A stretch of DNA of 64,000 nt from Microlunatus elymi (GTDB lineage: Bacteria > Actinomycetota > Actinomycetes > Propionibacteriales > Propionibacteriaceae): assembly GCF_007362775.1 (NCBI RefSeq), contig NZ_CP041692.1:372001-436000 (forward strand), given 5' to 3'. Below are positions 30,248 through 60,522 of the stretch, in pieces (the first letter of the stretch is position 1; each line of letters starts with the position of its first letter). Position numbers and translations under genes: made by a program. Under the pieces are notes generated by a model, which saw only the letters and a program-made list of their open reading frames with translations, was not told the DNA's origin and ran no database searches.

Positions 30248-30291
30248 GGTGGAGCCAAGGGGACTCGAACCCCTAACCCCCTGCTTGCAAA
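30248..30291. repeat. Attachment site copy 2 (AICE 1/AICE 2 junction)
   Basis: The 44-nt core with one mismatch (GAGCC for GAGCT) to copies 1 and 3. It is the shared boundary of the two elements. Sequence after GCTTGCAAA is not tRNA. Confidence 0.9.
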
Positions 30292-42593: not shown

Positions 42594-43229
42594 TTAGCTG
42601 ACTGACCGCCACGAATCCGACAGAATTTTAAGCGCGTGAGTCACATCACTTGGTCCAGCGTTTTCACGTAAGTACCGACAGGCTCGTATCACGCCAAGCC
42701 GCACATTGCTCTTGGCCGCATTTGCACTCGCAGCGTCCTGAAGTGCCGATTGCATGCCTGTGAGTGCCAGTTCGAGGTACGGACGCCTTCTAGGTTCTGG
42801 CAAGTCCCGTCCGTTTCGGAGGAATCGATGAATAAGAGGGAGGAAGACTCCATCGGAGTTGTTGAGAACGTCAAATATTCGGCGGTCGTGCGTGGGATCC
42901 AAGTGTGCCAGCTCTGTGAGCATCCAGTGACTCATAAGCGAACAGCCATCGCACACGCGAGTTCCGTTCTCCGAGCGCCAGCGACAGGATTCCCTGATGG
43001 GGCACTCGGCACCATGGTCCGTTAGGTCAGCCGACGTCGACCTGGAGTTAGCCAGAGCACCGACCTTGCACCTGCCACCCACGTCGTTCTTGCAGCCCTT
43101 ACCCAAGCACGGCTTAGCAACGCGGACCAGCAAGGGATCATAGCCGCCTGTCCGTGTAGTCGGCATGCCTAGAGGGACCCATCGATCTTGGGGGGTCCCT
43201 CGAACAGCAATTGGAACTACCTCGCCCAT
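42594..43229 (-). CDS. Cys-rich, probably metal-binding protein beside a RiPP precursor
   Basis: About 211 aa from the ATG at 43229; the frame is open to 43292 and the exact start is unsure. Eight cysteines lie within some 55 residues: CLGKGCKNDVGGRC, then ECPIRESCRW and RVCDGC, a spacing that suggests an Fe-S or zinc site. The C-terminal half is helical (DAASANAAKSNVRLGVIRAC). I do not recognise the family. It follows the minus-strand precursor gene by about 100 nt and would be co-transcribed, so it may be a maturation enzyme, carrier or binding partner of that peptide. Confidence 0.7.
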   Translation of the reverse strand: MGEVVPIAVRGTPQDRWVPLGMPTTRTGGYDPLLVRVAKPCLGKGCKNDVGGRCKVGALANSRSTSADLTDHGAECPIRESCRWRSENGTRVCDGCSLMSHWMLTELAHLDPTHDRRIFDVLNNSDGVFLPLIHRFLRNGRDLPEPRRRPYLELALTGMQSALQDAASANAAKSNVRLGVIRACRYLRENAGPSDVTHALKILSDSWRSVS

Positions 43230-43326
43230 TGGAAGCGCACTCGGACACATCAGAGACGGTCGAGGCTCCGGCGGGTCTGCTTGCCTGGACACTCTTGGCT
43301 ACCTGCTCTGCGGATTGCGGTCGCCA

Positions 43327-43500
43327 CTACGGTGAGCAAGGAGAGCATGCGCCGCCGCACCCCGTGGAGCTACAGTCCATCAGATCGATTATCGAGCGAT
43401 CGATCTGAATCTCGTAGAGGGTGAACTCTGACTCTGGACGATCTGTGGGCGGCACCCCAGCGATTACATCTGGCTGGTCAATCAGGACAGTTGGCGGCAT
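43327..43500 (-). CDS. RiPP precursor peptide, minus-strand arm
   Basis: 57 aa, missed by length cut-offs. GAGGGAGG lies 6-7 nt before the ATG. The leader ends in an acidic stretch and the C-terminus is CSSTGCGGACSPCSP with four Cys. The leader shares GVP-x(2-8)-D with a following P and then SEFT[IL]-x-EI with the precursor at 46319, so the two are related. A TTGACT-17-TACGTT promoter lies upstream. It is followed by the Cys-rich protein gene. It was originally divergent from, and only about 560 bp from, the main cluster before an IS1380-family insertion. Confidence 0.82.
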   Translation of the reverse strand: MPPTVLIDQPDVIAGVPPTDRPESEFTLYEIQIDRSIIDLMDCSSTGCGGACSPCSP

Positions 43501-43613: not shown

Positions 43614-43757
43614 TGCTTGCGGCGGAGTGCGAAGGCTGGCCGCCATGACTGCAATGCATGTCTACCGTTGACTATCAGCGAACTGGCCCGGTGGCATCTA
43701 GAAATCCTTGCCGGCGGGGGTCGAAACCGGCGAGTCGCATCGCCAAGTCCTTCTAAG

Positions 43758-45452
43758 CCTCAATCCGTGGACTGGCTCGGGTGTTGATCTTGGTTTGTGA
43801 TGTTGATCTTGGATTGGCTCGTTGTTTGTCGTCGGGGCATGGGTGAGTTGCTGGTCTGCCCAGCTTTTCCACGTCTGCTCTCCGGTTGGCGCCGATGCGG
43901 CGGTCGGGTCGATGGGCTATGTGGCTGCCGGTGGCCCGATGCTGTTGGTGAACACGTGGTGCCACAATCGGAGCCACTGATCGGCCCAGGGCCAGTGAGC
44001 GGGTAGGTGCAGGAACTTTCGGCGGGCCGGCCGCGCGATCCGGGCGGGCACCATGATCAGGTGCCGGCGCAGGGTGGCTCCCCGAGCCACGGCATGCCGG
44101 CCGCCGACCAGGCTGCCGGCGGCGCGGAGCAGGTTGTGACAGATCCCGGCGCAGATCGCCCAGGCTGTGTTGGCGGCGAATCGGCCCGACGGCAGGTGAG
44201 CCAACGGGCCGTCGATCAGATCCGAGTGCACGGTTTCGATGATCGCGTGTTGGCGATGGGTCACATCGGCTCGGGTGACGGATTCGAGACTGTTGGTCAG
44301 GAACGGGTGGTAGCGCCACACCGGGAACAACTCGTCGAGCCTGGCGACATCCCGCACTCGGCGGACGACCAGCCGGGCGGTGATCGGCCGGGCAGTGCTG
44401 GCGAAGGCGGTGAACGCCTCGACCTCGGCGACCTGGGCGTCGGAGATCAACACGCCGGTGTCGGGGTCGACGACGGCACCGGGATAGTGCACGGCAGTCC
44501 AGGCATCCTCCGCGATCGAGGCAATCGCTTGGTCGAGCGCGGCGTTGCGGGTCAACACCAGTGAGAACCGCACGCCGTGGTCCAGGCAGGCTCCAGCGAC
44601 CAGGTGGTTGCCGTAAGCCGAATCGCCCCGCACCAAAATCTCGCCGGTCGCGCCGGCCTGTCGGGCGGTGCCGATGGCCTCGGTCACCATCGATGCCGCA
44701 CCACGCCCGGATCCGGCCTTCCCGGCCCTCAGCCGGATCCCCGCCACTACCGGGGCACCGTCGGTAGTGCTGATCGTGGTCACCAGCGGCGACAGGCCCT
44801 TGCGGAGCACCTGTTTGCCGGCGATCTTGGCGTGCCCGAAACTCGCACCCTCCTTGGCATGCCCGTAGACCGGACGGAGCAGCGAGTCGATATCGATCAA
44901 CGCCCGCTGCTCGATCCCCGGCAACAAGTCGCTGCAGCCGACGAGGTTGACCAGGTGGGCTCGGGCCACCGACGCCAGCTGGCTGGTGTGTCCATGGCTG
45001 AGGTTGCGCAGGAACTGACCCAAGGTCGCGGGCGCGTACACCTGCTTGAACAGTCGCGCCGTTCCACCAGCCCGGATCACGTCCAGATCATCGATACAGT
45101 CCGCACCTGCGGCCATCCCGGCGATGATCGAGGTGACCTTCCCCGCCGGGTTGACCCCAGACGAGGCCACCCATGCCGAATCGACCCGAACCCGGTCGGC
45201 CAGCAACTCCGACAAGCCGGCCCGCTCGGCCAGACCCATCACCGGAGCCAGCCCGGCACACGACACCAGGTGCTCCTCATCGAACATCGGAACAGCCCGC
45301 GTCCACCCATGAGGTAGTTTCACTATCAGTGCCTTCTTGGTTCGGTCGGATCAGTGCGTTAGCAACACAGATTCTCCCTTGCCAGGAAGGCCTCTCACGT
45401 CCTCACACGCTGGACAGCCCCACCCAACCGACTACTCGTCCACGGATCGAGG
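43758..45452 (-). mobile_element. IS1380-family insertion sequence
   Basis: 1695 bp. Terminal repeats begin CCTCAATCCGTGGAC and CCTCGATCCGTGGAC. The 5-bp target duplication CTAAG lies at 43753-43757 and 45453-45457. It encodes one transposase and sits between the two arms of the RiPP cluster. Confidence 0.9.
43917..45323 (-). CDS. IS1380-family DDE transposase
   Basis: 468 aa from a GTG. An N-terminal part (GLAPVMGLAERAGLSELLAD) is followed by the catalytic core with Asp in ALIDIDSLLRPVYG, Asp in ILVRGDSAYGNH and a distal acidic residue in the HAIIETVHSDLIDG region. C-terminal text (LLRAAGSLVGGRHAVARGAT) is typical of the family. No stop or shift is seen, so it is probably active. Confidence 0.92.
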   Translation of the reverse strand: MKLPHGWTRAVPMFDEEHLVSCAGLAPVMGLAERAGLSELLADRVRVDSAWVASSGVNPAGKVTSIIAGMAAGADCIDDLDVIRAGGTARLFKQVYAPATLGQFLRNLSHGHTSQLASVARAHLVNLVGCSDLLPGIEQRALIDIDSLLRPVYGHAKEGASFGHAKIAGKQVLRKGLSPLVTTISTTDGAPVVAGIRLRAGKAGSGRGAASMVTEAIGTARQAGATGEILVRGDSAYGNHLVAGACLDHGVRFSLVLTRNAALDQAIASIAEDAWTAVHYPGAVVDPDTGVLISDAQVAEVEAFTAFASTARPITARLVVRRVRDVARLDELFPVWRYHPFLTNSLESVTRADVTHRQHAIIETVHSDLIDGPLAHLPSGRFAANTAWAICAGICHNLLRAAGSLVGGRHAVARGATLRRHLIMVPARIARPARRKFLHLPAHWPWADQWLRLWHHVFTNSIGPPAAT

Positions 45453-45763
45453 CTAAGATTCGCCTCAGGAATCGCTCCGCGCCTTCAAGGGCTGTGCCAG
45501 GGGGCTAGTGCCGAAGGCGGACTACCGACGATGTTTGCATACGAAGCACCACTCCAATGGTCAAGGGGACTCTTGACCGGCGTCAGCGGCGAAGCGTGGC
45601 CCGCGTGTTCAGTGTGCGGCCTCGGCACCTCGCTCAGAAGTGGCCAGTACGCCCAGCTCGGGGAGGGTCGATGACTACGTGGCTGGCGAGCAGACGAGGG
45701 CCAGGAGTAGATGCCCACGAAGCCGTCAATCCGGGCGCGTCACAGTCTGCTGGAACGGAAGCC
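45453..45763. other. Region upstream of the RiPP operon promoter
   Basis: About 310 nt between the IS1380-family element and the promoter, with no convincing gene on either strand. Before the IS insertion it was the intergenic region between the two divergent precursor operons. Confidence 0.4.
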
Positions 45764-45792
45764 TTGACGACCCCTTGATGCGGTGCTAGCGT
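45764..45792 (+). promoter_or_regulatory. Promoter of the main RiPP operon
   Basis: TTGACG (45764-45769), a 17-nt spacer and TAGCGT (45787-45792), a good housekeeping-type promoter. The leader RNA would be about 110 nt to the first precursor start. Confidence 0.55.
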
Positions 45793-45909
45793 CCCGAAGC
45801 AACGTCCGGCTAAGGGGACACTCGATGCAGATGTCCGCCTCGTCCGTAGGGCGGCCTCTCAAGTCCCGCCACCGACGCCGGGCCCATTCAACGACGATTG
45901 GGGCTTACC

Positions 45910-46128
45910 GTGACAACTGGGACTTTGCAAGGCGCCGTCTCAATGGAGTACCTGGCGGCGGACGACACGATTGGGCTGCCGACCAGTAACCGGTCCGGCG
46001 CGGAGCAGGGGCTCGATCCATTCTGGATCGACGACTTTGACGGCATGATTGTCGAGGTCGTCAACAGTGCCGCTTACTGCTCAGGCTGCAGCGGTTGCGT
46101 CGGGTGCTCCGGGTCCTGCCGGGGATAA
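45910..46128 (+). CDS. RiPP precursor peptide 1 (five-Cys core)
   Basis: 72 aa from the GTG at 45910, or 61 aa from the ATG at 45943; neither has a strong ribosome binding site. The N-terminal part is an acidic leader (DPFWIDDFDGMIVEVV) and the C-terminus is AAYCSGCSGCVGCSGSCRG with five Cys in a Cys-x-x-Cys ladder and Gly/Ser between. There is no helix or signal peptide. It is the first gene after the promoter. The ladder resembles substrates of MNIO enzymes such as bufferins, whose Cys become thiooxazoles or related groups, but the modification here is unknown. Confidence 0.82.
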   Translation: MTTGTLQGAVSMEYLAADDTIGLPTSNRSGAEQGLDPFWIDDFDGMIVEVVNSAAYCSGCSGCVGCSGSCRG

Positions 46129-46255
46129 TCTCGTCTCAGACCCGATTGTTCACGAAGCACTCTGATTACCTCCCGCACCGTGAGGATGATCACGCCATTA
46201 TGCGTGCCCAGGTCGCACTCCTGTGCGCGCGGCCCGTCAAAGCGGCGAAAGGATC

Positions 46256-46267
46256 CCGCCATGGCGG
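46256..46267. promoter_or_regulatory. Perfect palindrome between the two precursor genes
   Basis: CCGCCATGGCGG, a 12-bp perfect palindrome about 50 nt before the precursor 2 start. It could be an operator or an mRNA hairpin that sets the ratio of precursors. Chance occurrence is possible. Confidence 0.3.
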
Positions 46268-46318
46268 CAAAGAATTGTAGTAGAGCGTCGCGCAATTCCA
46301 CGACAGGAGAAGTTAAGC

Positions 46319-46516
46319 ATGACGACATTGATTGCGCCGGATGCCGGCCAATGTCAGGAGACAGCATTGGGGGTGCCAGAGTTCACGGATCTCGACACAC
46401 CCTCCGAGTTCACGATTGCGGAGATCAGCTCGGCCTCACAGCTCATGGCCTTCGACAAATCGGAGCCCCTCGGATTCTGTGACGGATGCCAGGGATGTAG
46501 CGGGTGTTCAGTCTAG
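46319..46516 (+). CDS. RiPP precursor peptide 2 (four-Cys core)
   Basis: 65 aa. CAGGAGAAG precedes the ATG at 46319. The leader (residues 1-50) contains PSEFTIAEISSASQLMAF and the C-terminus is CDGCQGCSGCSV, a regular Cys-x-x-Cys ladder with four Cys. One further Cys lies in the leader (Cys12). The leader is related to the minus-strand precursor (SEFT[IL]-x-EI), and the core type matches precursor 1. It ends 57 nt before the glycosyltransferase gene. Confidence 0.85.
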   Translation: MTTLIAPDAGQCQETALGVPEFTDLDTPSEFTIAEISSASQLMAFDKSEPLGFCDGCQGCSGCSV

Positions 46517-46573
46517 CGCACACCACGTTCTGTCAGTCACGGGTCTAGAACCGCGGTTGACTATGAAACAAGA

Positions 46574-48658
46574 ATGGTGTCAGGCGTGAGGATAGGAATA
46601 ATCGGAAAGGTCCCTCCCATCGAAGGGGGAGTCAGCCGATCAACATTCTGGGAGGCCCTTGCGACGGCGGAAATTGGCTACGCAACCACCGTTGTAACGA
46701 ACGCATCAGAGGTCGAGCAGGAGTACCGCTCTAGTCATCTAGGGCAGATGCCAACAAATCCCCTTCTGTCCATTCATAGTACCGTCACACCTGCGGCCGC
46801 ACTTCGCCATATACCACGGTCGAATCCGTTCGTTTCCAAGCTGGTGGGCTTAGCGTTAACTCAGTTTGAGCGTTCTCGCCCGGAATTCATTCACGCTCAC
46901 TACCTGGAACCGTACGGCGTCGCGGCGATGGTCGTTAGCAAGCTGCTGGAAATCCCATACGGGGTTCGACACGCAGGCAGCGACGTTGGACGTCTCTACA
47001 ACCGCGCACCGGAACTGCGTGGCGTGTATGAGCGCGTATTCGCAGATGCCTCCTACATAATCGCGTCAGCGAGAGTCAAGAGGGCTCTTATCCATCTCGG
47101 CATCGATCCGGACGCATTTCTGAACTCACCGCCAGATTGTCTGAACGACAACTACTTCAGGCCCAGCGGTCAGACCTTGGACTTCAGTGCACGGAGAGCG
47201 GGGCTTGATCCAGGCTCCATCCATGCTCGCTTGAATGCCGATTCTAGGTTTGACGAGTCCGCGCCGACCCTTGGGGTCTACGGAAAAGTCGGCGAATTCA
47301 AGGGCTCTTTTGACCTTGTCGAAGGGCTCCGTCGTATGCGTTCCGCTCGGTACAACCTTGTGGTGCTATCCTCGGGGCCGCCGGTCGCTCTCGAGCAGAT
47401 GCACGCCAGAGCCACCGAGCTCGGTGTAGCGGGGAACATTACGTGGATTCCCTTCATCCCGCATTGGGAGATTCCTCAGTTCATCCGTGGGTGCACCGCC
47501 GTTGCGTTCCTAGAACGGAACTTCCCAATCGCGATCCACCGCCCGGGAATCATGAGAGAAGTAATGGCATGCGGGCGCCCCCTTGTTGTCTCGCAAGAGG
47601 TGGCAGCGAAGGCCCCCGTCGAGGGTGAGCCGTATCTCGTCGTCGATCCGACTCAACCGGAGGAGCTTGCCGCAGCACTCGACACGGCCCTGGAGCCTTC
47701 TGGGGACGCCGCACAGAGAGCTGAAGCAGCACTCGTCCACTATGCGGCATCGGCTCCCTCGTGGGTCGAGTACCGCGAGATCCTACAAACGCATTGGGAC
47801 CTGCGGCTCGAGGCGGTAAGGGAAAGGAAGCAGAAGGTGTCAGCCATCGCTGTACAGAAACTTGTGGCTCGCCTTAGTGTCAGTGAGCCTTTCAGAGAAT
47901 GGTTCAAGGTAGCACCGGCCGAGGCCATGCGTGGGTATGATCTGTCTGACGATGAGACGGAAGTTCTGCGGAAGATCAATCGCAGGATGCTGGATCACTT
48001 CGCGGCGTCCCTTATGTCCAAGTGGCGCCAGTCGGCTGAGCACCAACTGCCTCGTGCTCACGGCTTTCTGGAGGACGATTTCTCCAAGCTTTTCTCGGAA
48101 TATTACGGGCTTCACGCGCCAGACCCCTCAAGAAGCCGGGTCGACTACATCCTGGCCTTTGCACGCTTTCTTGAGGACTCCTTCAGCATTCCTAATGCCG
48201 ACGATCGAACACTCAGGGCCATGAATATATGCAAACTTGACCGATGCCTACTTGAGGTCAAGACCCGAGTGAGTTCCTTGGATAGCCTGCTGCGAATAAA
48301 TGCAAAGACCGGCGGCCTATCCCCAGATTCTAAGGTGGCTCGAGATCCGCGAATGATGATTGAGTCGTTCGACTACCCGGTGACTAGCCTTATCGATCCG
48401 GCATCGTTCGATGGCGCACAGCTTGACAGTGGGATGAAGGTTGCCTTCCGGCCCGCTGATTCTTTAAACCGTAGTCCATGCGTGGAGATCTCTGGAGCGG
48501 TTGGGCGTCTTCTGGGGTACGCATCGGAGTCACCGAGAACGATCGCGGAGATCGCGGAGCTCTATGCTCGTGACAATGGAGGATCGGTTGATGCCGAGCA
48601 GGTCGCAAAGGCATGCCAGATGTGTGTGGATCAGGCACTCATGGTGGTGATTGAGTGA
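46574..48658 (+). CDS. GT4 glycosyltransferase with a C-terminal partner/RRE-like part
   Basis: 694 aa. Residues 1-410 are a GT4-type glycosyltransferase (RIGIIGKVPPIEGGVSRST, FIHAHYLEPYGVAAMV, GVYGKVGEFKGS, then RPGIMREVMACGRPLVVS as the donor-side region). GT4 enzymes normally have about 380 residues, so some 280 are extra. Residues about 425-500 (LSVSEPFREWFKVAPAEAM to SKWRQ) resemble helical domains found next to MNIO enzymes. The last 90 residues (ISGAVGRLLGYASESPRTIA and on) have a winged-helix pattern like PqqD/RiPP recognition elements. A protein that binds the precursor leader and presents or glycosylates it is the simplest reading; the RRE assignment is tentative. Confidence 0.75.
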   Translation: MVSGVRIGIIGKVPPIEGGVSRSTFWEALATAEIGYATTVVTNASEVEQEYRSSHLGQMPTNPLLSIHSTVTPAAALRHIPRSNPFVSKLVGLALTQFERSRPEFIHAHYLEPYGVAAMVVSKLLEIPYGVRHAGSDVGRLYNRAPELRGVYERVFADASYIIASARVKRALIHLGIDPDAFLNSPPDCLNDNYFRPSGQTLDFSARRAGLDPGSIHARLNADSRFDESAPTLGVYGKVGEFKGSFDLVEGLRRMRSARYNLVVLSSGPPVALEQMHARATELGVAGNITWIPFIPHWEIPQFIRGCTAVAFLERNFPIAIHRPGIMREVMACGRPLVVSQEVAAKAPVEGEPYLVVDPTQPEELAAALDTALEPSGDAAQRAEAALVHYAASAPSWVEYREILQTHWDLRLEAVRERKQKVSAIAVQKLVARLSVSEPFREWFKVAPAEAMRGYDLSDDETEVLRKINRRMLDHFAASLMSKWRQSAEHQLPRAHGFLEDDFSKLFSEYYGLHAPDPSRSRVDYILAFARFLEDSFSIPNADDRTLRAMNICKLDRCLLEVKTRVSSLDSLLRINAKTGGLSPDSKVARDPRMMIESFDYPVTSLIDPASFDGAQLDSGMKVAFRPADSLNRSPCVEISGAVGRLLGYASESPRTIAEIAELYARDNGGSVDAEQVAKACQMCVDQALMVVIE

Positions 48659-48864
48659 TGTCAGGAATTGTTCTCGAAACCTTGCAGTTTCGCGAGGTCC
48701 CCGTTGAGCCGGTCAGCGATGAACACCCCTGTGATATATGTCAGGCATGTTTTGGCCGGATTCTGTCCCGGACAATCGACCCGCGAGCCGTAGACGGAGA
48801 TGACCAGCGATCATGTGACGGTGGACCCGTCACTCGTTCACTAGCTCAATCGGGGATGCAATGA
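48658..48864 (+). CDS. 68-aa protein with CDICQAC, coupled to the MNIO gene
   Basis: 68 aa. Its ATG overlaps the glycosyltransferase stop (TGATG) and its stop overlaps the MNIO start (ATGA). The middle has CDICQACFGR, very like the precursor 2 core CDGCQGC, and a later lone Cys (RSCDGG). No helix. It could be a third substrate, a metallochaperone, or the small partner that MNIO enzymes often need. Its coupling to the oxidase argues for a partner; the Cys ladder argues for a substrate. Confidence 0.65.
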   Translation: MSGIVLETLQFREVPVEPVSDEHPCDICQACFGRILSRTIDPRAVDGDDQRSCDGGPVTRSLAQSGMQ

Positions 48865-49706
48865 ACTCGGAGCCTCGGGGAGCCGTTGAGCCGGGTCCCG
48901 TCGTGAATGTTCGGACGGGTGGCTTCGGGCTGGGATATCGGTCTGAGCTCATGGATGAAATTTCGAACGCTGCGTACGTGGACACTCTTGAAGTCTTAAG
49001 CGAGCAGTTCTTTGACTCCAAGTCCAGGGAACTACTTCGCGAACTGGCGGCTGCCTATCATGTAGTCCCGCACGGTACAGGTCTCTCGATTGGTTCGTTT
49101 ACTCGTCCTCGGCCGGAGTATTTGCAGTCGATTAGACAGGTTTGCGACGAGATTGGCGCGGACTACTATTCTGAACACTTGTGCATGACACGCGCTCCAG
49201 GCGTGAACATGGGGCATCTTGGTCCGCTGTTGCCAAGTCGCGCATCTGTCGACATCGTCGCGCGTAATGTTGACATCGTTCAGAATGAGTTGGGCTTACC
49301 GCTTGCCCTAGAGAACATCACACAGCCTTTGATTTTGCCCTCGCCCGACATGAGCGAGGCTGAATTCTTCTCAGAAGTCATTGACCGCACCGGTGCGCTT
49401 GTGCTTCTGGACATTACGAACCTCTACACAAATTGCGTAAACCAGGGCAGAGATCCAGATGCGGAGCTGTCGCACATGCCGTTGGATCGAGTGCGGCATG
49501 TCCACCTGGCAGGAGGACGGTGGCGTGACGATGTGCTTGTAGATAGTCACTCTCACCCAGTTCCGGACGCTGTTTGGGAGTTGCTAAAAACCGTTTCTAG
49601 CATTACACGAAATTTCAACCTCATCATTGAGCACGATCAGAATTACGCAGACCCCGCGACCATTGTGTCGCAGGTCGCGCGAGCGAGGGAAGTAGTTCTG
49701 ACGTGA
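48861..49706 (+). CDS. MNIO (DUF692) multinuclear iron oxidase
   Basis: 281 aa TIM-barrel of the DUF692 family. Metal-site motifs are in order: VVPHGTGLSIGS, ADYYSEHLC, LPLALENIT, LLDITNLYTNCVNQG, RVRHVHLAGG, VDSHSHPVPDAVWELL and NLIIEHD. Family members (MbnB, TglH, ChrH, BufB) use two or three irons and oxygen to rewrite Cys in peptides into oxazolone/thioamide, thiooxazole or excised products. With Cys-rich precursors upstream this is very probably the core maturase. The typical separate DUF2063-like partner gene is missing; the extra part of the 694-aa protein or the 68-aa protein may replace it. Confidence 0.92.
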   Translation: MNSEPRGAVEPGPVVNVRTGGFGLGYRSELMDEISNAAYVDTLEVLSEQFFDSKSRELLRELAAAYHVVPHGTGLSIGSFTRPRPEYLQSIRQVCDEIGADYYSEHLCMTRAPGVNMGHLGPLLPSRASVDIVARNVDIVQNELGLPLALENITQPLILPSPDMSEAEFFSEVIDRTGALVLLDITNLYTNCVNQGRDPDAELSHMPLDRVRHVHLAGGRWRDDVLVDSHSHPVPDAVWELLKTVSSITRNFNLIIEHDQNYADPATIVSQVARAREVVLT

Positions 49707-51448
49707 AGAGCAAGCTGCGACGCGATGCACCTGAATGGCGCCGCTTGCTCCGCTCGACCTTCAGGCCGTATTCGGGCCGACTGGTCGTTGTCGGCCTGGC
49801 GACGGTAGTCACATCGGTTGCGAGCATCGTGACTCCATTGATACTTGCGACTCTGGTCAATGAAGCGTTCGCTGTCCAGCCTCGCGGTGGCGTAATCGCG
49901 AGGGACGTCATTCTTCTGCTGCTGCTGCCTTTGATAGCCGGCATTGGTGGTATGTGGCATGCGCTCCAAGTCACGGAGATTAGCCAACTGGCTATCCGCG
50001 ACCTGAGAGTGCGACTCTTTGACGCTGTTCACCACCAGCCGATGGAAGCAATTGACCGGGCTGGCGGTGGCCATGGGCATGCTGCAATAGTCACAGACAC
50101 GGTGTCCATCGAGAACTCCATACTTGAACCTGCGCGTGGCGCACTACTGAACCTCACAATCCTCGGTGGTTCGATCGGTGGCATGTTTCTTCTGAACTGG
50201 CAGCTTTCCCTCGTGGCCGTGTGTATTCTGCCTCTGTATCTAGTTCTTATCTGGCGAATTGGTATCGTTCGACGAAGAGTTGCACGTATCCGACAGGAGC
50301 GGCTTGCCGGCTTAAACGGAACCGTCGCTACCACAACAAGCAGAGATGCTGTTGTGACGGCCCGCACACTGGGATCCGTTGCTCGTCTTCGGGACATTTT
50401 TCGTGAGAGTATCGCGGAGCTACCGCTGTTGGCCCTCCGGGAAAAACGCGCCGGCCGAGTATTTTTCACTAGCTCAAGCATTCTCTTTAGCTGGCTTCCG
50501 CCAATCATTTATGGTCTAGTTGCCGTTTCCCATATGGGTGGATTTGGCGGCGCGTTTTCGATCACTGTTGGCGGTGCCGTCGGATTCGTGGCCATTCTGA
50601 CTCGGTTGTATTCGCCCGGCGGTCCACTCAATCAGCTCCTTTCGATATACGGGGATTTTGTTCGAGATCTTGCCGTGTGGGATCGGATCGCGGACTTCTT
50701 GGGTGCTGAAGAACCTGGCGATGAGGCGGGGCCGCGGCCGGGGCGCTCCGATGATCGATCGGCGAGAGCGCCGTCGGGCATGGGGTTGTCGCTGCGGGAC
50801 GTCGCGTTCCACTACTCTGGGGATTCGGTAGCATCGGTTGGACCGGTGTCTATGGACGTTCCCCGAGGGCAGCTGATCGCGATTTCTGGTCGCAGTGGGG
50901 CGGGGAAGACGACGTTTGGAATGCTTTGTGTCGGACTGCTGTCCCCATCGTCGGGTTCAGTGACATTAGATGGGGTTCCGATTAGCGATTTGGGTGTCGC
51001 CCTCCCTGAGCGTATCGGATATTTACCGCAGAGTTCATACATTCTTGATGCCGACTGGAGGTCGAACCTTCTTTTAGGCGGCGATGTCGCAGACTCTGCT
51101 TTGGAAGGCACTCTCGCTGAAGTGGGATTGTCAGATAGGTCGTCACATTCCGAGTTGGGACTATCCGAACCGCTGGGGTTCGACGGTGTCAACCTGTCCG
51201 GCGGGGAGAGACGACGTCTTGCCTTGGCGCGGGTCTTGCTCAGGAAGCGCGAGCTCTACGTCCTCGATGAGCCAACGGCGGGCCTTGATGGATACTCAAG
51301 GCGGCTGGTTGGCGATCGGATTGAGCAGCTCGCTAAGGATGCGGCGGTTATTGTGATCACGCACGATGACGGCCTTCTCAATGTGGCCACGAGGCGACTT
51401 GTGATCGATCGTGGCCTTTTGATTGCAACTGACGTGGTAGGTGCTTGA
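49703..51448 (+). CDS. ABC exporter (membrane and ATPase domains fused)
   Basis: 581 aa from a GTG inside the MNIO stop (GTGA). Six membrane helices lie in residues 25-320 and the nucleotide-binding domain begins at about 365, with Walker A GRSGAGKTT (about 396), signature LSGGERRRLALARV and Walker B LYVLDEPTAGLDG. The type is that of RiPP and lipid exporters. There is no N-terminal C39 peptidase, so leader cleavage must be done elsewhere. It should export the mature peptide and may give self-protection. Confidence 0.92.
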   Translation: MKSKLRRDAPEWRRLLRSTFRPYSGRLVVVGLATVVTSVASIVTPLILATLVNEAFAVQPRGGVIARDVILLLLLPLIAGIGGMWHALQVTEISQLAIRDLRVRLFDAVHHQPMEAIDRAGGGHGHAAIVTDTVSIENSILEPARGALLNLTILGGSIGGMFLLNWQLSLVAVCILPLYLVLIWRIGIVRRRVARIRQERLAGLNGTVATTTSRDAVVTARTLGSVARLRDIFRESIAELPLLALREKRAGRVFFTSSSILFSWLPPIIYGLVAVSHMGGFGGAFSITVGGAVGFVAILTRLYSPGGPLNQLLSIYGDFVRDLAVWDRIADFLGAEEPGDEAGPRPGRSDDRSARAPSGMGLSLRDVAFHYSGDSVASVGPVSMDVPRGQLIAISGRSGAGKTTFGMLCVGLLSPSSGSVTLDGVPISDLGVALPERIGYLPQSSYILDADWRSNLLLGGDVADSALEGTLAEVGLSDRSSHSELGLSEPLGFDGVNLSGGERRRLALARVLLRKRELYVLDEPTAGLDGYSRRLVGDRIEQLAKDAAVIVITHDDGLLNVATRRLVIDRGLLIATDVVGA

Positions 51449-51510
51449 TTTGTGGATTGCGGCCGGCTTTCGACAGATCTGCCGCCCGACTCATGGTTGA
51501 AGGATTTCGC

Positions 51511-52629
51511 GTGGCGCTTAACGTACTGTTCATCTCGGCATCTGTGGCGCCACACCATCGCGGAGGAATTGGCCGATTTGTCACTGAGGCTGCTCATGGG
51601 CTTGTCGCGGCCGGCGCTCGCGTTGGAATATGCTGGCCTGGTGGCAGCTGGATTGAAAACGGGGTAGAGGTATTCGGTGCCAGCAGTGACACCGGCCCAC
51701 GGCATTGGAGTCGTGTCTTTACGTGGCAGGACTACGCATCTCGTTATGCGGCCGCTATTGAGAGGTCGATCGACGCCGGACCTTGGCATGTTGTTCACTT
51801 ACACGACTGGTTGGTGGCGCCATCCCTGCCTTCAGTCGGCCGGCTTCAAGCTCCGCTCAAAGTTGCGACATTGCATACGGACGCGAACCTCGCGGTAGGA
51901 GCCAGTGATCAGCGGCGTGCGTTGCGAATACGTTGGGAGAGGCAAGTTGTAGAATGTGCGGATGCGCTGACGGTCTGCAGTTTGGATATGGCACGTCGCG
52001 TCGCGACTCGATATGTTGACAGTCGGGTTGAGATTGTACCTGGTGGAGTGAACACTCAAGTATTCGGGCGTCCGTTGGTTACGGGACGGTTTCACAAGAA
52101 GGTGTTGTTCTTTGGGCAGTTGATTCGACGCAAGGGCTGCGACACATTCCTGCGGGCTGTTTCGCGTGTACTGACTGAAGTGCCCGACCTAGAAGTCGAA
52201 GTCATCGGCAGCGGGCCCGAGGCGGAGCGGCTTGCCTTGCTCGCTAAACAGTTGTGTATCGAGTCCGCGGTTAGGTTTCGGGGTCGGCTCGACGGAAGAG
52301 AGCTCGGCGATGAGGTTGCGAGCGCGTCAGTGGCTTGTCTTCCGAGCCGTGAAGAGCCATTCGGATTGGCTGCGTTAGAGGCTATGGCGGCCGGGGCAAT
52401 TGTTGTGGCCTCCCGCACTGGTGGATTTGTGGACTTTATCAAGCCTGGATTCAACGGATTCTTGTGTCGCGTGGACGACGACGAATGCTTCGCGGACTGC
52501 ATGTTGAATGTCCTTAATGGTCGCATCCCGTATGGCGTCATTGCGCGAAGGGGGCGAGAGACTTCTGATAGGTACTCATGGGAAGCGGTCGCGGAGAACC
52601 TTCTGGATGTGTACCGAGCGACGCTGTGA
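51511..52629 (+). CDS. GT4 glycosyltransferase (second)
   Basis: 372 aa from the GTG at 51511, chosen because GAAGGA sits 7 nt upstream; an ATG at 51493 and a TTG at 51445 are in frame. It has the complete GT4 layout: N-domain APHHRGGIGRFVTEAAHGL, VVHLHDW, C-domain VLFFGQLIRRKGCDTFLRAV, and the E-x7-E donor site REEPFGLAALEAMAAGA. It should use a nucleotide sugar to add a hexose-type sugar, possibly to Ser/Thr or Cys of the peptide or to a first sugar set by the 694-aa enzyme. Having two GT4 genes in one RiPP operon is unusual. Confidence 0.88.
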   Translation: MALNVLFISASVAPHHRGGIGRFVTEAAHGLVAAGARVGICWPGGSWIENGVEVFGASSDTGPRHWSRVFTWQDYASRYAAAIERSIDAGPWHVVHLHDWLVAPSLPSVGRLQAPLKVATLHTDANLAVGASDQRRALRIRWERQVVECADALTVCSLDMARRVATRYVDSRVEIVPGGVNTQVFGRPLVTGRFHKKVLFFGQLIRRKGCDTFLRAVSRVLTEVPDLEVEVIGSGPEAERLALLAKQLCIESAVRFRGRLDGRELGDEVASASVACLPSREEPFGLAALEAMAAGAIVVASRTGGFVDFIKPGFNGFLCRVDDDECFADCMLNVLNGRIPYGVIARRGRETSDRYSWEAVAENLLDVYRATL

Positions 52630-52685
52630 TGAGTTATGTTTGCCCGCTGTCTTGTTCGTGGTGTTTGACAGGAGATGTGGTTGCA

Positions 52686-53231
52686 GTGTTTGAATCGTTT
52701 ACATCCGAGGCGCGAGTAAGTATTGAAAATGGTAAGGGGGCAGCCCGGGTCCTTCGATCGAATTGTGTTGGAACTGAGCATATACTTCTCGGTGTCTTAC
52801 ACGATCGGTCGGGTATGTCGTGTCGCATCCTTGAAGAGTTCGGACTGACGGCGTCATCTGTGCGTCGGGAGATCGAAAGGACCATTAGTCCGAGCGTTAC
52901 TGAAGGTGGCGCGCATGTGTCGTTTTCGTTGCATGCGAGAAGTGCTCTCGAGGCAGCCCGTCTTATGGCCACACTGATGCGCGCCAGCGGTGTCGGAAAT
53001 GAGCACCTGGTGCTCGGCGTGATGGGAGAGATCGGCGGCGGTGCAGTTCGGGTGGTGTCTGATCTGTGTCCGAGTCCGGGCAAGATTCGTGCAGATCTGC
53101 TGTCTGCCATGGCTAAGGAAGATTCGCGATCCGGAGGTAACCTTGCGATCGATACCCGTGTGGCAGCGGTCGAGGAGCGGCTTCAGGCCATTGAGAGGGC
53201 GCTGAACGGTCGTGAAGGCCTGGAGTCCTGA
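52686..53231 (+). CDS. Clp-N domain protein
   Basis: 181 aa from the GTG at 52686, preceded by CAGGAGA and aligning with ClpC starts (VFESFTSEARVSIENGKGAA). A frame extension to the ATG at 52629 (ATGA overlap with the GT gene) would add MSYVCPLSCSWC. Two Clp-N repeats are visible (NCVGTEHILLGVLHDRSG and GVGNEHLVLGVMGEI), with a C-terminal coiled coil (VAAVEERLQAIERALNG) and no AAA+ domain. Such stand-alone Clp-N proteins bind peptides or recruit ClpC/ClpP. It may hold the precursor, direct leader removal, or give immunity. Confidence 0.82.
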   Translation: MFESFTSEARVSIENGKGAARVLRSNCVGTEHILLGVLHDRSGMSCRILEEFGLTASSVRREIERTISPSVTEGGAHVSFSLHARSALEAARLMATLMRASGVGNEHLVLGVMGEIGGGAVRVVSDLCPSPGKIRADLLSAMAKEDSRSGGNLAIDTRVAAVEERLQAIERALNGREGLES

Positions 53232-55786: not shown

Positions 55787-57199
55787 ATGCGGCGCCTTGT
55801 CGTGCGGGTCGGGCCGATTGTTCGTCAGCCGGCATGGGTGGTGATCATGGTTGGTTTGTACCGCGGCATTGCTCGGGGGCTTCGCCGGTGCGTCCGGGCG
55901 CCGTTTGTTCTGATCACCATCGTCGGTTTCGTGGGCCTTGTTTGGTGCCTTATCCATCACGGCTTGCGGCCGGTGGCGGCAGTTCCGGCCGTGGTGGTGG
56001 TCTTGGCGGGTTGGCGGTGGCGTTGGCCGGCCGGGTTTGATCGGCTGGTCTGGATTCCGTTGCGGTCGTCGCGGCGGCGTCGGCGGACTTATCGGCGGCA
56101 TTGGGATCTGGCGATGGACGCGTCCGGCCTGGTGCGGATGAGTGGCGACGTGAGGCGGGTGCCGCCGCTGGTTCGGGTGCGGAGTTCTCGATCGGTGGAT
56201 CGGGTTCGGGTGGAGATGCTGCCAGGTCAGGTGTTGGACGACTTCGCGGCGGTGGCTGATCGGTTGGCGCAGACCTTTGGTGCGTTGGATTGCCGTGTGC
56301 ACAGCGTTCCGGGTCGTCCGCATCGGATCGAGTTGTGGATGTTGATCAAGGAACCGTTGGAGCAGGTGGTGCAGCCGTGGCCGACCACGGTGGAGGACCT
56401 GACGCGGGGCGTTCCGGTGGCTCGGGCTGAGGACGGCCAGGTCCATCGGTTGATGATCATCGGCTCGCACGTGCTGGTGGTGGGTGCGACGGGCGCCGGT
56501 AAGGGGTCGGTGGTGTGGTCGCTGCTGGTTGGTCTGCAGCCGGCGATCGCGGCCGGCCTGGTGCGGGTGTGGGCGATCGATCCGAAGGGCGGCATGGAGC
56601 TGTCCCTGGGTGCTGGCTTGTTTGATCGGTTCTGCCACGGCGACGCCACCTCGGCCTCGTACGAGGAAGCGTTCGCCGGGCTGCTCGAGGACGCTGTGGT
56701 GACGATGCGGCAGCGGCAAGATCAGCTGCGCGGCGTGTCCCGGCTGCACGCGCCGACGGTGGATGAGCCGTTGTTGATCATCGTCATTGACGAGCTGGCT
56801 GCGTTGACGGGCTGGGTTTCGGACCGGACGCTGAAGAAGCGGATCGAAACTGCACTCGGGCTGTTGTTGTCCCAAGGCAGGGCCGTGGGCGTGGTGGTCG
56901 TGGGCGCGGTGCAGGATCCGCGCAAGGAAGTGCTGCCGATGCGGGACCTGTTCCCGACCCGGATCGCGTTGCGGGTCAACGAATCCGAGCAGGTCGGTCT
57001 GGTGCTGGGTCAGGGTGCTCGATCGCGTGGCGCGTTGGCCGACCGGATCCCCGAACGTCTCCCCGGTGTGGGTTACGTCGTGGTCGACGGCATCGCTGAA
57101 CCGCGCCGGGTCCGATTTTCCTACGTCAGCGATGAACAGATCGCCGAGGCGTGCCGCAAACACAGCAAGGCGCTGGCGGCCGAGGAGGTGGCGGCGTGA
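55787..57199 (+). CDS. FtsK/SpoIIIE-type DNA translocase (TraSA-like), AICE 2
   Basis: 470 aa from the ATG at 55787. Two N-terminal helices (about 32-90), then the motor with Walker A GATGAGKGS (about residue 233), WAIDPKGGMELSLG and Walker B LLIIVIDELAALTGW. It is closely similar in text and order to the AICE 1 copy (25712). It moves double-stranded DNA between cells. In this element it coexists with a VirB4-type system, for which it could also act as coupling protein. The stop overlaps the repSA start (GTGA). Confidence 0.92.
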   Translation: MRRLVVRVGPIVRQPAWVVIMVGLYRGIARGLRRCVRAPFVLITIVGFVGLVWCLIHHGLRPVAAVPAVVVVLAGWRWRWPAGFDRLVWIPLRSSRRRRRTYRRHWDLAMDASGLVRMSGDVRRVPPLVRVRSSRSVDRVRVEMLPGQVLDDFAAVADRLAQTFGALDCRVHSVPGRPHRIELWMLIKEPLEQVVQPWPTTVEDLTRGVPVARAEDGQVHRLMIIGSHVLVVGATGAGKGSVVWSLLVGLQPAIAAGLVRVWAIDPKGGMELSLGAGLFDRFCHGDATSASYEEAFAGLLEDAVVTMRQRQDQLRGVSRLHAPTVDEPLLIIVIDELAALTGWVSDRTLKKRIETALGLLLSQGRAVGVVVVGAVQDPRKEVLPMRDLFPTRIALRVNESEQVGLVLGQGARSRGALADRIPERLPGVGYVVVDGIAEPRRVRFSYVSDEQIAEACRKHSKALAAEEVAA

Positions 57200-58929
57200 G
57201 CGCGGCAATCATGCCTGAGGTCACAGCGGAGATGGCCCGGGAGCTGGCGGTCGAGCAGAAGGTGTGTGTCCGGCCGTTGTTGCGGCGGGTGATCGATCAG
57301 CAGACCGGGGACGAGACCCGGGTGGCGCTGCCCTGCGGTTCCACGCGCGAATCGGTGTGCCCGTCGTGCGCTGACAAGGCACGCCGGCTCCGGATCCAAC
57401 AATGCGCAGAGGGATGGCACCGCGACGTCGAACCCGAAATCGACACTCCGGAACCGTCCGAGGACCCTGCCGCTGATGATCTTGATGCCGAGACCGGTGC
57501 GGGTGATCTGGACGAGAGTGATGCTCGGCGGGTTCGGTCGACACGCCGGCGGCAGGATGCTGCCGAGCTTCCTCGGGTTCCGGTCGAGGATCGCACGGTT
57601 GGCCGGGTGTTTGAGACGCCGGATGGGCGACGGTACCGGCCGAGCATGTTCGTCACGATCACCCTTCCTTCCTACGGCAAGGTCAAGGCCAACGGGGCAC
57701 CGGTCGACCCGAGCAGCTACAACTACCGTCGGGCTGCGTTGGATGCGTTGCACTTCCCGAAGCTGGTGGACCGGTTCTGGCAGAACCTGCGCCGCTGTGC
57801 CGGGTTCAAGGTCCAATACTTCGCCGCTGTTGAACCACAGAAACGGCTCGCACCGCACTTGCATGCCGCGGCGCGCGGTGCGATCCCGCGCCAGACGATT
57901 CGGCAGGTCGTTCGGGCAACCTACGCCCAAGTCTGGTGGCCGCACTTCGATCAACCGGTGTACGTGGATCGGGTGCCGGTCTGGGACGGGCACGACTACG
58001 TTGATCCCGACTCCGGCGTCGTTCTGCCGACCTGGGATCAGGCGGTTGCTGATCTTGATCAGGATGGTCGGGCGGCGCACGTGCTGCGGCTGGGGTCGCA
58101 GGTGGACATGGCCGGCATCATCGCCCCGAGTGAGGACGCCGACCGGGCCATTCGCTACCTGACCAAGTATCTGGCCAAGTCGATCGCCGACACGTACGTC
58201 GACAACGATGCTGCTGTTGTTGATCTTGACTACGAGTCGCACGTGGATCGGCTGCACCAGGAGTTGCTGTACTTGCCGTGCAGCGAGCGGTGCGCGAACT
58301 GGCTCCGGTTCGGTGTGCAGCCGAAGAACGCCGGTCCCGGACTGCGGCCCGGCGCGTGTGTGTCGAAAGCGCATGATCGGGAGAACCTCGGCATCGGTGG
58401 CCGGCGGGTCCTGGTGTCGCGGCAGTGGTCAGGCAAGACGTTGAAGGAACACCGGGCCGATCGGGCGACCGTGGTGCGCGAAGCCCTGTTGAACTCGGGG
58501 ATCGTGGCGCCGGAGATCGAACGATTGGCGGCGTCGGTCAGGTTGCCGGACGGGCGGCCGCGGTTCGTCTGGTCGGACTCGAAAGTTGATCATGCCGGCT
58601 ACGTGTGGACAATTCTGCAGTCGGTGAACGAACGGGCCAGGTGGCGGGAACAGTACGAGGCAGCCAAGAAACGCCAGGCTGTGGACACTGTTTCGGCAAT
58701 TGATCATGAAACCGCCGACCGTCCGCCGCCAGGTGCAGACCGAGAGGGTGACCACAGGGTGGCCTCCCCGATAACCAGCCCAAATGTGGTCCCCGGGCCG
58801 TGGGTCAAGGGTGAGCGCAGCGAATCCGAAGGACACGAAGTGCCCTTGACGCGCGGCCCGGGGACCAGACAATCACAAGTCGGGGAGGCCACTCCCGGGA
58901 ACGGCACGGAGGGTGATCATGACGGCTAA
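57196..58929 (+). CDS. Rolling-circle replication initiator (RepSA-like), AICE 2
   Basis: 577 aa from the GTG at 57196. It has the Cys pair PCGSTRESVCPSCADKA, the HUH-type motif in RLAPHLHAAARG and the Tyr motif AIRYLTKYLAKSI, as in the AICE 1 protein. It is longer at the C-terminus. The last 60 residues are low-complexity and include a tract (KGERSESEGHEVPLTRG) encoded by the shared GTCAAGGG inverted repeat, and the gene runs 11 nt into xis. The repeat seems to have extended the gene. Confidence 0.9.
   Translation: MSAAIMPEVTAEMARELAVEQKVCVRPLLRRVIDQQTGDETRVALPCGSTRESVCPSCADKARRLRIQQCAEGWHRDVEPEIDTPEPSEDPAADDLDAETGAGDLDESDARRVRSTRRRQDAAELPRVPVEDRTVGRVFETPDGRRYRPSMFVTITLPSYGKVKANGAPVDPSSYNYRRAALDALHFPKLVDRFWQNLRRCAGFKVQYFAAVEPQKRLAPHLHAAARGAIPRQTIRQVVRATYAQVWWPHFDQPVYVDRVPVWDGHDYVDPDSGVVLPTWDQAVADLDQDGRAAHVLRLGSQVDMAGIIAPSEDADRAIRYLTKYLAKSIADTYVDNDAAVVDLDYESHVDRLHQELLYLPCSERCANWLRFGVQPKNAGPGLRPGACVSKAHDRENLGIGGRRVLVSRQWSGKTLKEHRADRATVVREALLNSGIVAPEIERLAASVRLPDGRPRFVWSDSKVDHAGYVWTILQSVNERARWREQYEAAKKRQAVDTVSAIDHETADRPPPGADREGDHRVASPITSPNVVPGPWVKGERSESEGHEVPLTRGPGTRQSQVGEATPGNGTEGDHDG
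58804..58850. repeat. GTCAAGGG...CCCTTGAC inverted repeat, copy 2
   Basis: Arms at 58804-58811 and 58843-58850 with AATCCGAAGGAC inside, matching 13626-13676. It lies within the 3' coding end of repSA. Confidence 0.65.
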
Positions 58930-59152
58930 TGCGGTTGATCATGAGGTTCGTGTGCTTCGTCCGAAGTGGTACACGGTTGCTCAGGTGGCAGAACTGTTGG
59001 GTTACGGCGAGTCGAAGGTGCGGTCGTTGATCCTTGCTGGTGACCTTCGATCGTTGAAGGATGGCCGGTCCCGCCGGGTGTTGCCGGAGTGGGTTGATGA
59101 GTACGTTGCGATGCGAGCGGCTGAGGCCGAGCAGGCCTGGTGGACGTCATGA
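58919..59152 (+). CDS. xis: Excisionase (HTH), AICE 2
   Basis: 77 aa from the ATG at 58919, with GGAGGG just before it. A single HTH (WYTVAQVAELLGYGESKVRS, LILAGDLRSLKDGRSRRVLP) of the excisionase family. ATGA overlap with int. It directs excision of AICE 2. Confidence 0.87.
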   Translation: MTANAVDHEVRVLRPKWYTVAQVAELLGYGESKVRSLILAGDLRSLKDGRSRRVLPEWVDEYVAMRAAEAEQAWWTS

Positions 59153-60369
59153 GCCCGCGGCGAGTGAACGGTGAGGGTTCGATCTATCCCTATCCGCATG
59201 GGTTTCGGGCGTATGTCTGGGTGACGACTCCGAGTGGTCGTCGGCAGCGGAAGTACGTTACGGGCAAGACGCGTGAGGACGTCCGGGAGAAGTACCTCCG
59301 GCTGCACGAGTCCGCCCGTCGTGGTCCTGTGGTGACGAAGGCTCCGCGCCTTGAGCAGTTTCTTGACGGTTGGCTGGATGAGGTCGTCGAGCCATCGTTG
59401 GCGCCGACGACCGCGGCGAGCTATCGGATGTGTGTTCGGCTCTACATCGTTCCGAGCCTCGGTGCGAAACGGCTGGACAGGATCACTGTGCGCGACGTGC
59501 AGTCGTGGCTGAATCGTCTTCGGGTGACGTGTCAATGCTGTGCGCAGGGCAAGGACGCCTCGCGGGAGAGGCCGCAGTGCTGCGCAGTGGGTCGATGCTG
59601 TAACCAGCTGCTTGGTGATTGGGCAGTGCATCAGGCGTACCGGGTGCTGCGAGCGGCGTTGTCTCAGGCGACTCGGGAGGAGCTCGTGGCGCGTAACGTC
59701 GCGGCGTTGGTTCGGGTGTCCGCTCCGCGAACGCAAGGGCGGGCGGTGTGGACGGTCGAGGATGCGCGCCGGTTCTTGGAGTCGTCGCGGGAGAGTGGCG
59801 ACCCGTATCACGTTGGCTATGTCTTGCTGTTGGTCCTGGGGCTGCGTCGCGGGGAGTTGTTGGGCCTGAAGTGGTCGGACGTCGACCTGGATGCGGCGGA
59901 GGCAAGGATTCGGTGGCAGTTGCAGCGGACGAACGGTGAATTGGTGCTCCGGAGGACGAAGACGTACGCGTCGGAAGCGGTGCTTCCTTTGCCGCAGATC
60001 TGCTCCGACGCTCTGGCGTCGCATCGCGCGTTGGCGAGTGCTTGGCGGCTGGCAGCTGGTCCAGCTTGGCACGACAACGACTTGGTTCTGTCGACGCGCT
60101 ACGGGCTGCCGATTGATCCTCGCAACTTCCACCGGAAGTTCAAGGAGCGTGCAGCGGCTGCCGGGGTGCCGGTGGTTCCGGTGCACTCAACGCGACGGAC
60201 GTGTGCTTCGTTGCTGGTCGAGTTGGATGTGCACCCTCGGGTCGCGATGCAGATCCTTCGGCACAGCCAGATCGCGGTGACGATGGACATCTACAGCCAG
60301 GTCGCCTCCGCCTCGACGCGTGAAGCTTTGACGAAGCTCGGTGGGCGGCTCGATTTCGGGAGGAATTGA
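59149..60369 (+). CDS. int: Tyrosine integrase of AICE 2
   Basis: 406 aa from the ATG at 59149. The N-terminal arm-binding region begins GEGSIYPYPHGFRAYVW. The core-binding domain carries a Cys-rich insert (CQCCAQGKD, QCCAVGRCC) common in actinobacterial integrases and likely to bind a metal. The catalytic domain has Arg in LGLRRGELLGL, H-x-x-R in VHSTRRTCASLL, and the nucleophile Tyr in HSQIAVTMDIYSQV. It lies 79 nt from the att core and targets the same tRNA as the AICE 1 integrase, from a different subfamily. Confidence 0.94.
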   Translation: MSPRRVNGEGSIYPYPHGFRAYVWVTTPSGRRQRKYVTGKTREDVREKYLRLHESARRGPVVTKAPRLEQFLDGWLDEVVEPSLAPTTAASYRMCVRLYIVPSLGAKRLDRITVRDVQSWLNRLRVTCQCCAQGKDASRERPQCCAVGRCCNQLLGDWAVHQAYRVLRAALSQATREELVARNVAALVRVSAPRTQGRAVWTVEDARRFLESSRESGDPYHVGYVLLLVLGLRRGELLGLKWSDVDLDAAEARIRWQLQRTNGELVLRRTKTYASEAVLPLPQICSDALASHRALASAWRLAAGPAWHDNDLVLSTRYGLPIDPRNFHRKFKERAAAAGVPVVPVHSTRRTCASLLVELDVHPRVAMQILRHSQIAVTMDIYSQVASASTREALTKLGGRLDFGRN

Positions 60370-60447: not shown

Positions 60448-60491
60448 GGTGGAGCTAAGGGGACTCGAACCCCTAACCCCCTGCTTGCAAA
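60448..60491. repeat. Attachment site copy 3 (within tRNA-Ala)
   Basis: The 44-nt core lies within and just beyond the intact tRNA-Ala gene and is identical to copy 1. It marks the right end of AICE 2. Confidence 0.9.
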
Positions 60492-60522
60492 GCAGGTGCG
60501 CTACCAATTGCGCCATAGCCCC
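60450..60522 (-). tRNA. tRNA-Ala (anticodon TGC)
   Basis: 73 nt on the minus strand. The acceptor stem GGGGCTA pairs with TAGCTCC and holds the G3:U70 wobble that defines alanine tRNA. The D-arm, the anticodon loop TTTGCAA with TGC, and the T-arm GGTTCGAGTCC are complete. CCA is not encoded. The 3' half is the integration target, and integration has kept the gene whole. Confidence 0.96.

Follow-up and report, generated by a model that had tools for sequence, protein, structure and literature searches.

What kind of product could be made by an operon in which genes for short cysteine-tailed peptides are coupled to an oxidase, two glycosyltransferases and an exporter? This question is raised by a locus of Microlunatus elymi located in a stretch of 64,000 nucleotides (contig NZ_CP041692.1, positions 372,001 to 436,000), which is referred to as the window and to which all coordinates below refer unless another locus is named. 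An examination of the letters alone (the sequence-only reading) had suggested a cysteine-modified, possibly glycosylated, ribosomally synthesized and post-translationally modified peptide (RiPP). Our analyses support the prediction of a cysteine-modified peptide and indicate that it is probably glycosylated, on the evidence that the family 4 glycosyltransferase (GT4) of the operon recurs beside cysteine tails in several phyla and that a multinuclear non-heme iron-dependent oxidative enzyme (MNIO) is present in 6 of 20 GT4 loci. The reading that we favor, and hold to be somewhat probable, is that of a RiPP pathway in which the MNIO oxidizes the tail cysteines, the GT4 glycosylates them, and a single chimeric protein serves both steps.

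Every gene named in the sequence-only reading was recovered, in the same tight order, by open reading frame (ORF) calls and by searches against Pfam and NCBIfam. The operon had been taken to start at 45764, which is 146 bp before its first gene. This gene encodes precursor 1 (45910–46128, +, GTG start), a peptide of 72 amino acids (aa) with the tail CSGCSGCVGCSGSCRG and cysteines at positions 57, 60, 63, 66, and 70. Precursor 2 (46319–46516, +, ATG start, 65 aa) is preceded by GACAGGAGAAG, a good Shine-Dalgarno-like sequence, and combines the leader motif SEFTIAEIS with the tail CDGCQGCSGCSV, whose cysteines are at 54, 57, 60, and 63. They are followed, all on the same strand, by a GT4 fusion protein of 694 aa (46574–48658), a cysteine-containing ORF with the motif HPCDICQAC (48655–48864), the MNIO of the DUF692 family (48861–49706), an ABC exporter (49703–51448), a second GT4 (start at 51445, 51493, or 51511, end at 52629), and a stand-alone ClpC N-domain (Clp_N) protein (start at 52629 or 52686, end at 53231). 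The cysteine-containing ORF, formerly given as 68 aa, reads as 69 aa; it overlaps both the stop of the fusion and the start of the MNIO gene, has no family match in Pfam or NCBIfam, and is possibly a further precursor. Overlaps of 4 nucleotides are found at three joins (viz. fusion/69-aa ORF, 69-aa ORF/MNIO, and MNIO/ABC exporter). The exporter consists of membrane and ATPase domains (Pfam, NCBIfam) and is indeed peptidase-less, with Pfam giving no match to a C39 peptidase, and a leader protease was not seen within the operon either. Chance ORFs were rejected as an explanation on the grounds of the gene overlaps, the family matches, and the recurrence of the arrangement at other loci.

This recurrence carries most weight in the argument, because lone short ORFs with cysteine tails are not rare: such ORFs are fairly common by themselves in this GC-rich window, where 8 of 618 ORFs of 25–120 aa, precursors 1 and 2 among them, pass a three-link cysteine-tail test. 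The 20 GT4 loci comprise 16 found with the GT4 alignment, one each from an Agrobacterium plasmid and a Rhizobium gallicum plasmid, one actinobacterial contig, and the window itself; a further GT4 match, on an R. gallicum R602sp plasmid, stands outside this set. Their contents were established by our own profile searches of ORFs of at least 60 aa, which in the window covered 36–62 kb. Within 2 kb of the GT4 gene, the 19 loci other than the window contain 16 cysteine-tail matches, where the distal rate would predict 2.5; two of the 16 are out-of-frame artefacts (one each in L018 and L026), the genuine tails of L020 score below the threshold of the test, and several of the loci are close relatives, L007 and L021–L024 not being independent. 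Upon inspection, a genuine cysteine-tailed peptide or protein is present within this distance in 14 of the 19 loci, the loci without one being L013, L014, L025, L026, and L027. An MNIO is encoded in the window and in L012 (Pseudoalteromonas), L013 (Burkholderia), L015 (Catellatospora), L016 (Mycobacterium), and L025 (Kaiserbacteria). Another 12 of the 20 loci encode a larger, related carrier-like protein (158–294 aa as the longest ORF), which in 11 of them ends in a cysteine tail (e.g. CKGCSACSSCGGGGSC) and in L027 is decayed, as is the GT4 there. The MNIO and the carrier-like protein occur together in none of the 20 loci, and the two loci with neither are the short contigs L014 and L026. Since the GT4 adjoins cysteine tails also at loci for which the searches gave no MNIO, we infer that the simplest common substrate would be the cysteine tail.

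The second line of evidence comes from the fusion protein itself. The sequence-only reading held that the known partners of MNIO enzymes are absent from this operon, a premise that is very probably wrong. Beyond its GT4 domain (46574–47830, approximately residues 1–410), the fusion gene appears to encode a helical domain resembling the MNIO partners TglI and DUF2063 (47843–48262) and, at its C-terminus, a winged-helix domain (48437–48658) that resembles PqqD and the RiPP recognition element (RRE) in its fold model and structure matches. The last 285 residues were modeled together with the homologues from L012 and L013, i.e. from three sequences; the predicted local distance difference test score (pLDDT) is 71–84 for model residues 231–285 (the last 55) and lower before them. 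In a Foldseek comparison with the PDB, only the top two matches reach E ≤ 0.001, and both belong to the TglHI complex: 8hi7_A (E 1.9e-4, 285 alignment columns) and 8hci_A (E 8.9e-4, 288 alignment columns), each with probability 1.0. The next matches are to MibB, PqqD, and ThcOx (E 0.01–0.2), which we take to be bearers of RRE domains; as a group, the PqqD, MibB/NisB, ThcOx, and TruD matches (E 0.01–1.1) rank after TglI. The L012 homologue also has a match to PF05402 that is below cut-off (E 0.0014).

Profile comparisons point in the same direction. The profile of the fusion C-terminus matches that of eight plasmid-borne proteins encoded beside DUF692 genes and annotated as "DNA-binding domain-containing" or hypothetical (probability 70%, E 3.9e-5), with two unrelated controls giving 0.15% and 0.23%, and the profile of the eight finds 3dee, which is the DUF2063 protein NGO1945. 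In L015 and L016 the partner-like part extends the MNIO at its C-terminus; these extensions, taken with a piece at the edge of the L014 contig (Xanthobacteraceae), match the eight proteins at 95.7% and the fusion C-terminus of the window at 83.6%. In L025 the match to the start of the region (60%, E 8.6e-5) comes from a separate gene of 158 aa that overlaps the MNIO gene. In L012 and L013, which share the gene order GT4-partner fusion, MNIO, ABC exporter, and AsnB-like protein, the module immediately precedes the MNIO; in the window the 69-aa ORF lies between. Hence, the absence of a partner was rejected on the strength of the profile comparisons and the low-confidence fold, and a partner-like and RRE-like module in the fusion is supported, not proved, by them. 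A typical relative of such partners is TglI of 8hi7, and TglI-like partners are termed PME-type 2 in a survey of the MNIO landscape (PMC12452194).

The start of the partner-like domain also resembles Os17/Frankia_peptide, below cut-off, in Pfam and NCBIfam. Searches of Actinomycetota with the fusion C-terminus gave 4 of 396 genomes in one survey (the genome itself and three others) and 5 of 376 in a second (the genome itself and four others), the other genomes in each case matching the Os17-like segment only. Frames of 79–119 aa in other Actinomycetota (L047–L050 and L003–L005) are similar to the initial helical part of the domain, and through this Os17/Frankia_peptide likeness the MNIO partners may be linked to NHLP-type "precursors".

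We envisage that a RiPP-type operon was acquired horizontally and that each precursor would have a leader at its N-terminus and a CxGC ladder at its C-terminus. The RRE-like end of the GT4/partner chimera would capture the leader of the precursor; the MNIO would dock on the partner domain and oxidize at least one cysteine of the tail; the GT4 domain, being part of the chimera as well, would then place a sugar on the tail, most likely at sulfur. The second GT4 may extend this first sugar or add another, and the ABC exporter would secrete the product. In this scheme the MNIO, the partner, and the RRE are known parts, and the new part is the GT4 with its apparent fusion to the partner. More tentatively, and with less than even confidence, the loci may represent a RiPP class extending across phyla and built around a constant GT4 that would glycosylate cysteine ladders at the C-terminus. 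In one branch a GT4-partner chimera would coordinate oxidation and S-glycosylation of short peptides to give S-glycosylated oxidized cysteines; the hosts of the other branch, for which the searches gave no MNIO, are rhizobia, other Alphaproteobacteria, an actinobacterium, and Patescibacteria, and in them the GT4 would modify the cysteine tails of larger carrier-like proteins. If correct, cysteine oxidation by an MNIO and glycosylation by a GT4 would be physically joined in one substrate-presenting protein, the GT4 motifs EPYG and AGSD in combination with a cysteine tail would provide a search handle for new glycopeptides, and a route would be opened to testing cysteine glycosylation by a glycosyltransferase of a type unlike that of glycocins.

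A number of observations weigh against this interpretation. The sequence-only reading had itself named a lack of conserved short ORFs beside the MNIO gene as evidence against its proposal, and in the five other MNIO loci the outcome is mixed: short cysteine-tailed ORFs are present in L012, L015, and L016, no such precursor was found in L013, and L025 has a weak candidate only. The loci L014 and L026 are truncated by their short contigs. The model of the partner domain is weak (mean pLDDT 50.9 from three sequences), and this low-confidence model superposes poorly on the TglHI chains (TM-score 0.36–0.40, rmsd 12). The chain A of 8hi7 and 8hci is presumably TglI, an assignment with which its length of 269, compared with 304 for TglH, is consistent. 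The partner match in L025 spans only about 70 columns, the partner region has no above-cut-off match in Pfam or NCBIfam, and no partner protein emerges from PDB sequence searches with alignments A5 (no match) and A7 (only pieces of XPF, E 0.05–0.1). The glycosyltransferase-linked MNIOs do not form one clade in a tree of 15 rows with several long branches and with L025 left out, in which the MNIO of L009 falls among them. Lastly, the nearest solved GT4 structures, MshA and BshA, act on small molecules, and no AsnB-like protein was found in the window, though all five other MNIO loci encode one.

AsnB-like proteins are present in 6 of the 20 loci (L012 at 14883–16817, L013 at 14834–16765, and L015, L016, L020, and L025) and ABC exporters in 8; the L012 AsnB-like protein scores above the asparagine-synthase cut-off, and these proteins perhaps provide a further tailoring step.

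The identity of the MNIO bears on the first alternative, that the operon makes a metal-binding cysteine peptide like the captophorins and bufferins, with thiooxazoles formed by the MNIO and the GT4 acting on serine or threonine or having a minor role. The enzyme is a clear member of its family (PF05114, 245.8 bits with a cut-off of 25; 6e-73), with PDB sequence matches to 8hci_D ("DUF692 family protein") and MbnB. Residues H71, H106, E151, N152, D184, H215, D228, H230, and E257 are among those invariant in all 15 aligned MNIOs, and the iron ligands are presumably among these conserved residues. Its best NCBIfam model is BufB, and cysteine-containing substrates would be common to both systems. 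However, it scores only 202 bits against the BufB equivalog cut-off of 310 and 164.5 against the HvfB cut-off of 360, and membership in this group was rejected on the BufB score. The precursors match no Pfam family and have no lysine adjacent to a cysteine; neither the EGKCG motif nor Lys-Cys or Cys-Lys pairs nor a DUF2282 match is found in them. Captophorin and bufferin systems pair the MNIO with a DUF2063 partner (PME-type 1), whereas no separate DUF2063 gene was seen here and the fusion has no PF09836 (DUF2063) match in Pfam. An ABC exporter is present, and the named operon genes include neither DoxX nor a copper gene (Pfam). We regard this alternative as unlikely.

The properties of the GT4 domain speak to a second alternative, namely that the enzyme is not a peptide glycosyltransferase but assembles a small glycoside or an envelope glycan, the fusion having some other purpose. 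Both glycosyltransferases of the operon match PF00534, PF13692, and PF13439, with PF00534 and PF13692 above cut-off for the GT4 domain of the fusion, and Pfam gives no PF00535 match at E ≤ 0.05 in either. The domain is modeled with the GT-B fold (pLDDT 88.6), and MshA and BshA, its closest structures in the PDB, are small-molecule glycosyltransferases, in agreement with this alternative. The invariant features of the family include K238, K243, E314, H322, and E329 and the motifs EPYG and AGSD; the usual GT4 motif is E-x7-E, and the wider spacing of E314 and E329 also favors a non-peptide role. On the other side stand the apparent fusion to a partner-like and RRE-like module and the recurrence beside cysteine tails, which extends to loci without a detected MNIO, and the alternative appears rather improbable.

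The Clp_N protein (PF02861, 46 bits, cut-off 20.7), which from its GTG start at 52686 with AGGAG upstream is 181 aa long, suggests a third alternative, an antibacterial RiPP that would be toxic through ClpC and from which a Clp_N decoy would shield the producer, in analogy to the protection that ClpC2 gives against cyclomarin; its gene directly follows that of the second GT4, and it is 33% identical to the N-domain of the host ClpC and retains the equivalents of F2, F80, and E89, reported as critical for cyclomarin binding in PMC10030653, but the host ClpC and a second Clp_N protein of the genome retain the same residues, so that they do not discriminate, and the Clp_N profile finds nothing among ORFs of at least 60 aa in the 19 other GT4 loci. 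We hold this alternative to be quite improbable. An immunity decoy or adaptor is thus a weakly supported candidate role for the protein. It resembles the ClpC2 sponge of mycobacteria in being a stand-alone, ClpC N-domain-like protein with these three residues; in contrast to ClpC2, as described in that source, it begins in its 181-aa form at the ClpC-like part without the approximately 90 preceding residues, and it sits in a RiPP operon.

Returning to the reading of a GT4- and MNIO-modified RiPP, its nearest relatives differ from it in distinct ways. Glycocins (viz. sublancin and glycocin F) are RiPPs with a PF00535-type S/O-glycosyltransferase and a C39 peptidase on the exporter. The operon shares with them a glycosyltransferase and, as proposed, an S-linked sugar, but its enzyme is a GT4, its exporter has no C39 match, and an MNIO is present. 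RiPPs made by an MNIO with a PME-type 2 partner are grouped, in PMC12452194, as the TglHI pearlins, the ApyH aminopyruvatides, and biphenomycin-like compounds; the operon resembles them in its PF05114 enzyme and in a partner-like region with the TglHI complex as best PDB match, and differs in the CxGC ladder of its precursor tails and in the apparent fusion of the partner to a GT4. Fusions between RREs and glycosyltransferases of PF00535, a family different from GT4, are reported in PMC12710340. The earlier statement that no described class matches the operon holds within the openly licensed papers searched, where neither a GT4-MNIO system nor a GT4-partner fusion is found among the matches listed; the main text of the MNIO landscape paper contains neither "glyco" nor "transferase" (PMC12452194), and the sole mention of glycosylation in PMC12707348 concerns vancomycin.

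Besides the partner-like domain, the sequence-only reading had overlooked a third cysteine-tailed peptide on the minus strand, an insertion sequence, and an integrative element. The peptide (43327–43500, −, 57 aa, tail CSSTGCGGACSPCSP) is a candidate third precursor whose leader motif, SEFTLYEI, resembles that of precursor 2, and it is separated from the operon by an IS1380-family insertion (43752–45458, −; transposase 43917–45323; NF033539, 288 bits, cut-off 180) with terminal inverted repeats of 21 nucleotides (90%). Leader likeness was compared for 8 peptides (28 pairs, uncorrected p-values), of which 6 pairs have p < 0.05, three of them between L012 paralogues (p 0 to 0.002). Precursor 2 pairs with the minus-strand peptide (p about 0.03) and with the first L012 peptide (p 0.014), the motif being common to both in each case; its pairing with L016 (p 0.025) aligns outside the motif, which makes the noise level of the comparison evident. 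The region upstream in L012 encodes three short peptides whose leaders belong to one family and whose tails differ, a pattern that would fit precursor paralogues. Directly downstream of the minus-strand peptide a cysteine-rich protein of 232 aa is encoded (42594–43292, −), which has a weak zinc-ribbon match below cut-off and no plasmid relatives in tblastn.

A pSAM2-type actinomycete integrative element inserted at tRNA-Ala (30257–60492) carries the operon as cargo; direct repeats of 36 bp, which correspond to the 3′ end of tRNA-Ala, mark the two ends of the element (30257–30292 and 60457–60492). The features defining such elements are present, viz. a RepSA initiator (57151–58929), a tyrosine integrase (59140–60369), and tRNA attachment repeats, together with an AAA_10 ATPase (31480–34281). 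Direct repeats of the tRNA-Ala end are found at 13250–13293, 30257–30292, and 60448–60492, and a first pSAM2-type element (13250–30292) carries its own RepSA (27190–28725), integrase (28992–30158), and FtsK-like protein (25691–27193); because of the three repeats and the sets of RepSA and integrase, two elements are apparently arranged in tandem, with the operon as cargo of the second. The larger operon genes have a GC content of 54–58%, most of the window 63–70%, and the regions at 38–44 kb and 54–56 kb 58–62%.

The GT4 family was found in at least 1 of 398 Pseudomonadota (the centre genome included) and at least 2 of 396 Actinomycetota (its own genome included), these being lower bounds from surveys that scored up to 4 candidates per genome, and in 1 of 20 congeners, i.e. 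its own genome, with none of the other 19 giving a match at E 1e-25. A scan of genome contigs with the whole fusion as one protein confirmed 0 of 8 stretches, a scan of viral contigs with alignment A1 gave 0 of 24, and blastn of the operon against plasmids gave no match. Phage origin was rejected, as the sole match in a phage collection agrees with the Agrobacterium plasmid match in query span, identity, and bits. This match is to the 6.2-kb "Bacteriophage sp." record MT837770.1 (H44; 49% cover of the GT4 fusion), which is perhaps mislabeled Agrobacterium plasmid DNA. On R. gallicum plasmid pRgalIE4872c (L007, 8300–10290), a GT4 and a cysteine-tailed protein are encoded amid nifB, nifA, nifW, nifS, and NifQ, making a role in symbiosis possible. 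Another MNIO cluster, on a plasmid of Streptomyces sp. NBC_01527 (L009, 7708–14240), encodes a 56-aa cysteine peptide, a 274-aa protein of unknown function, an MNIO, an FAD protein, a 2OG oxygenase, and an ABC exporter.

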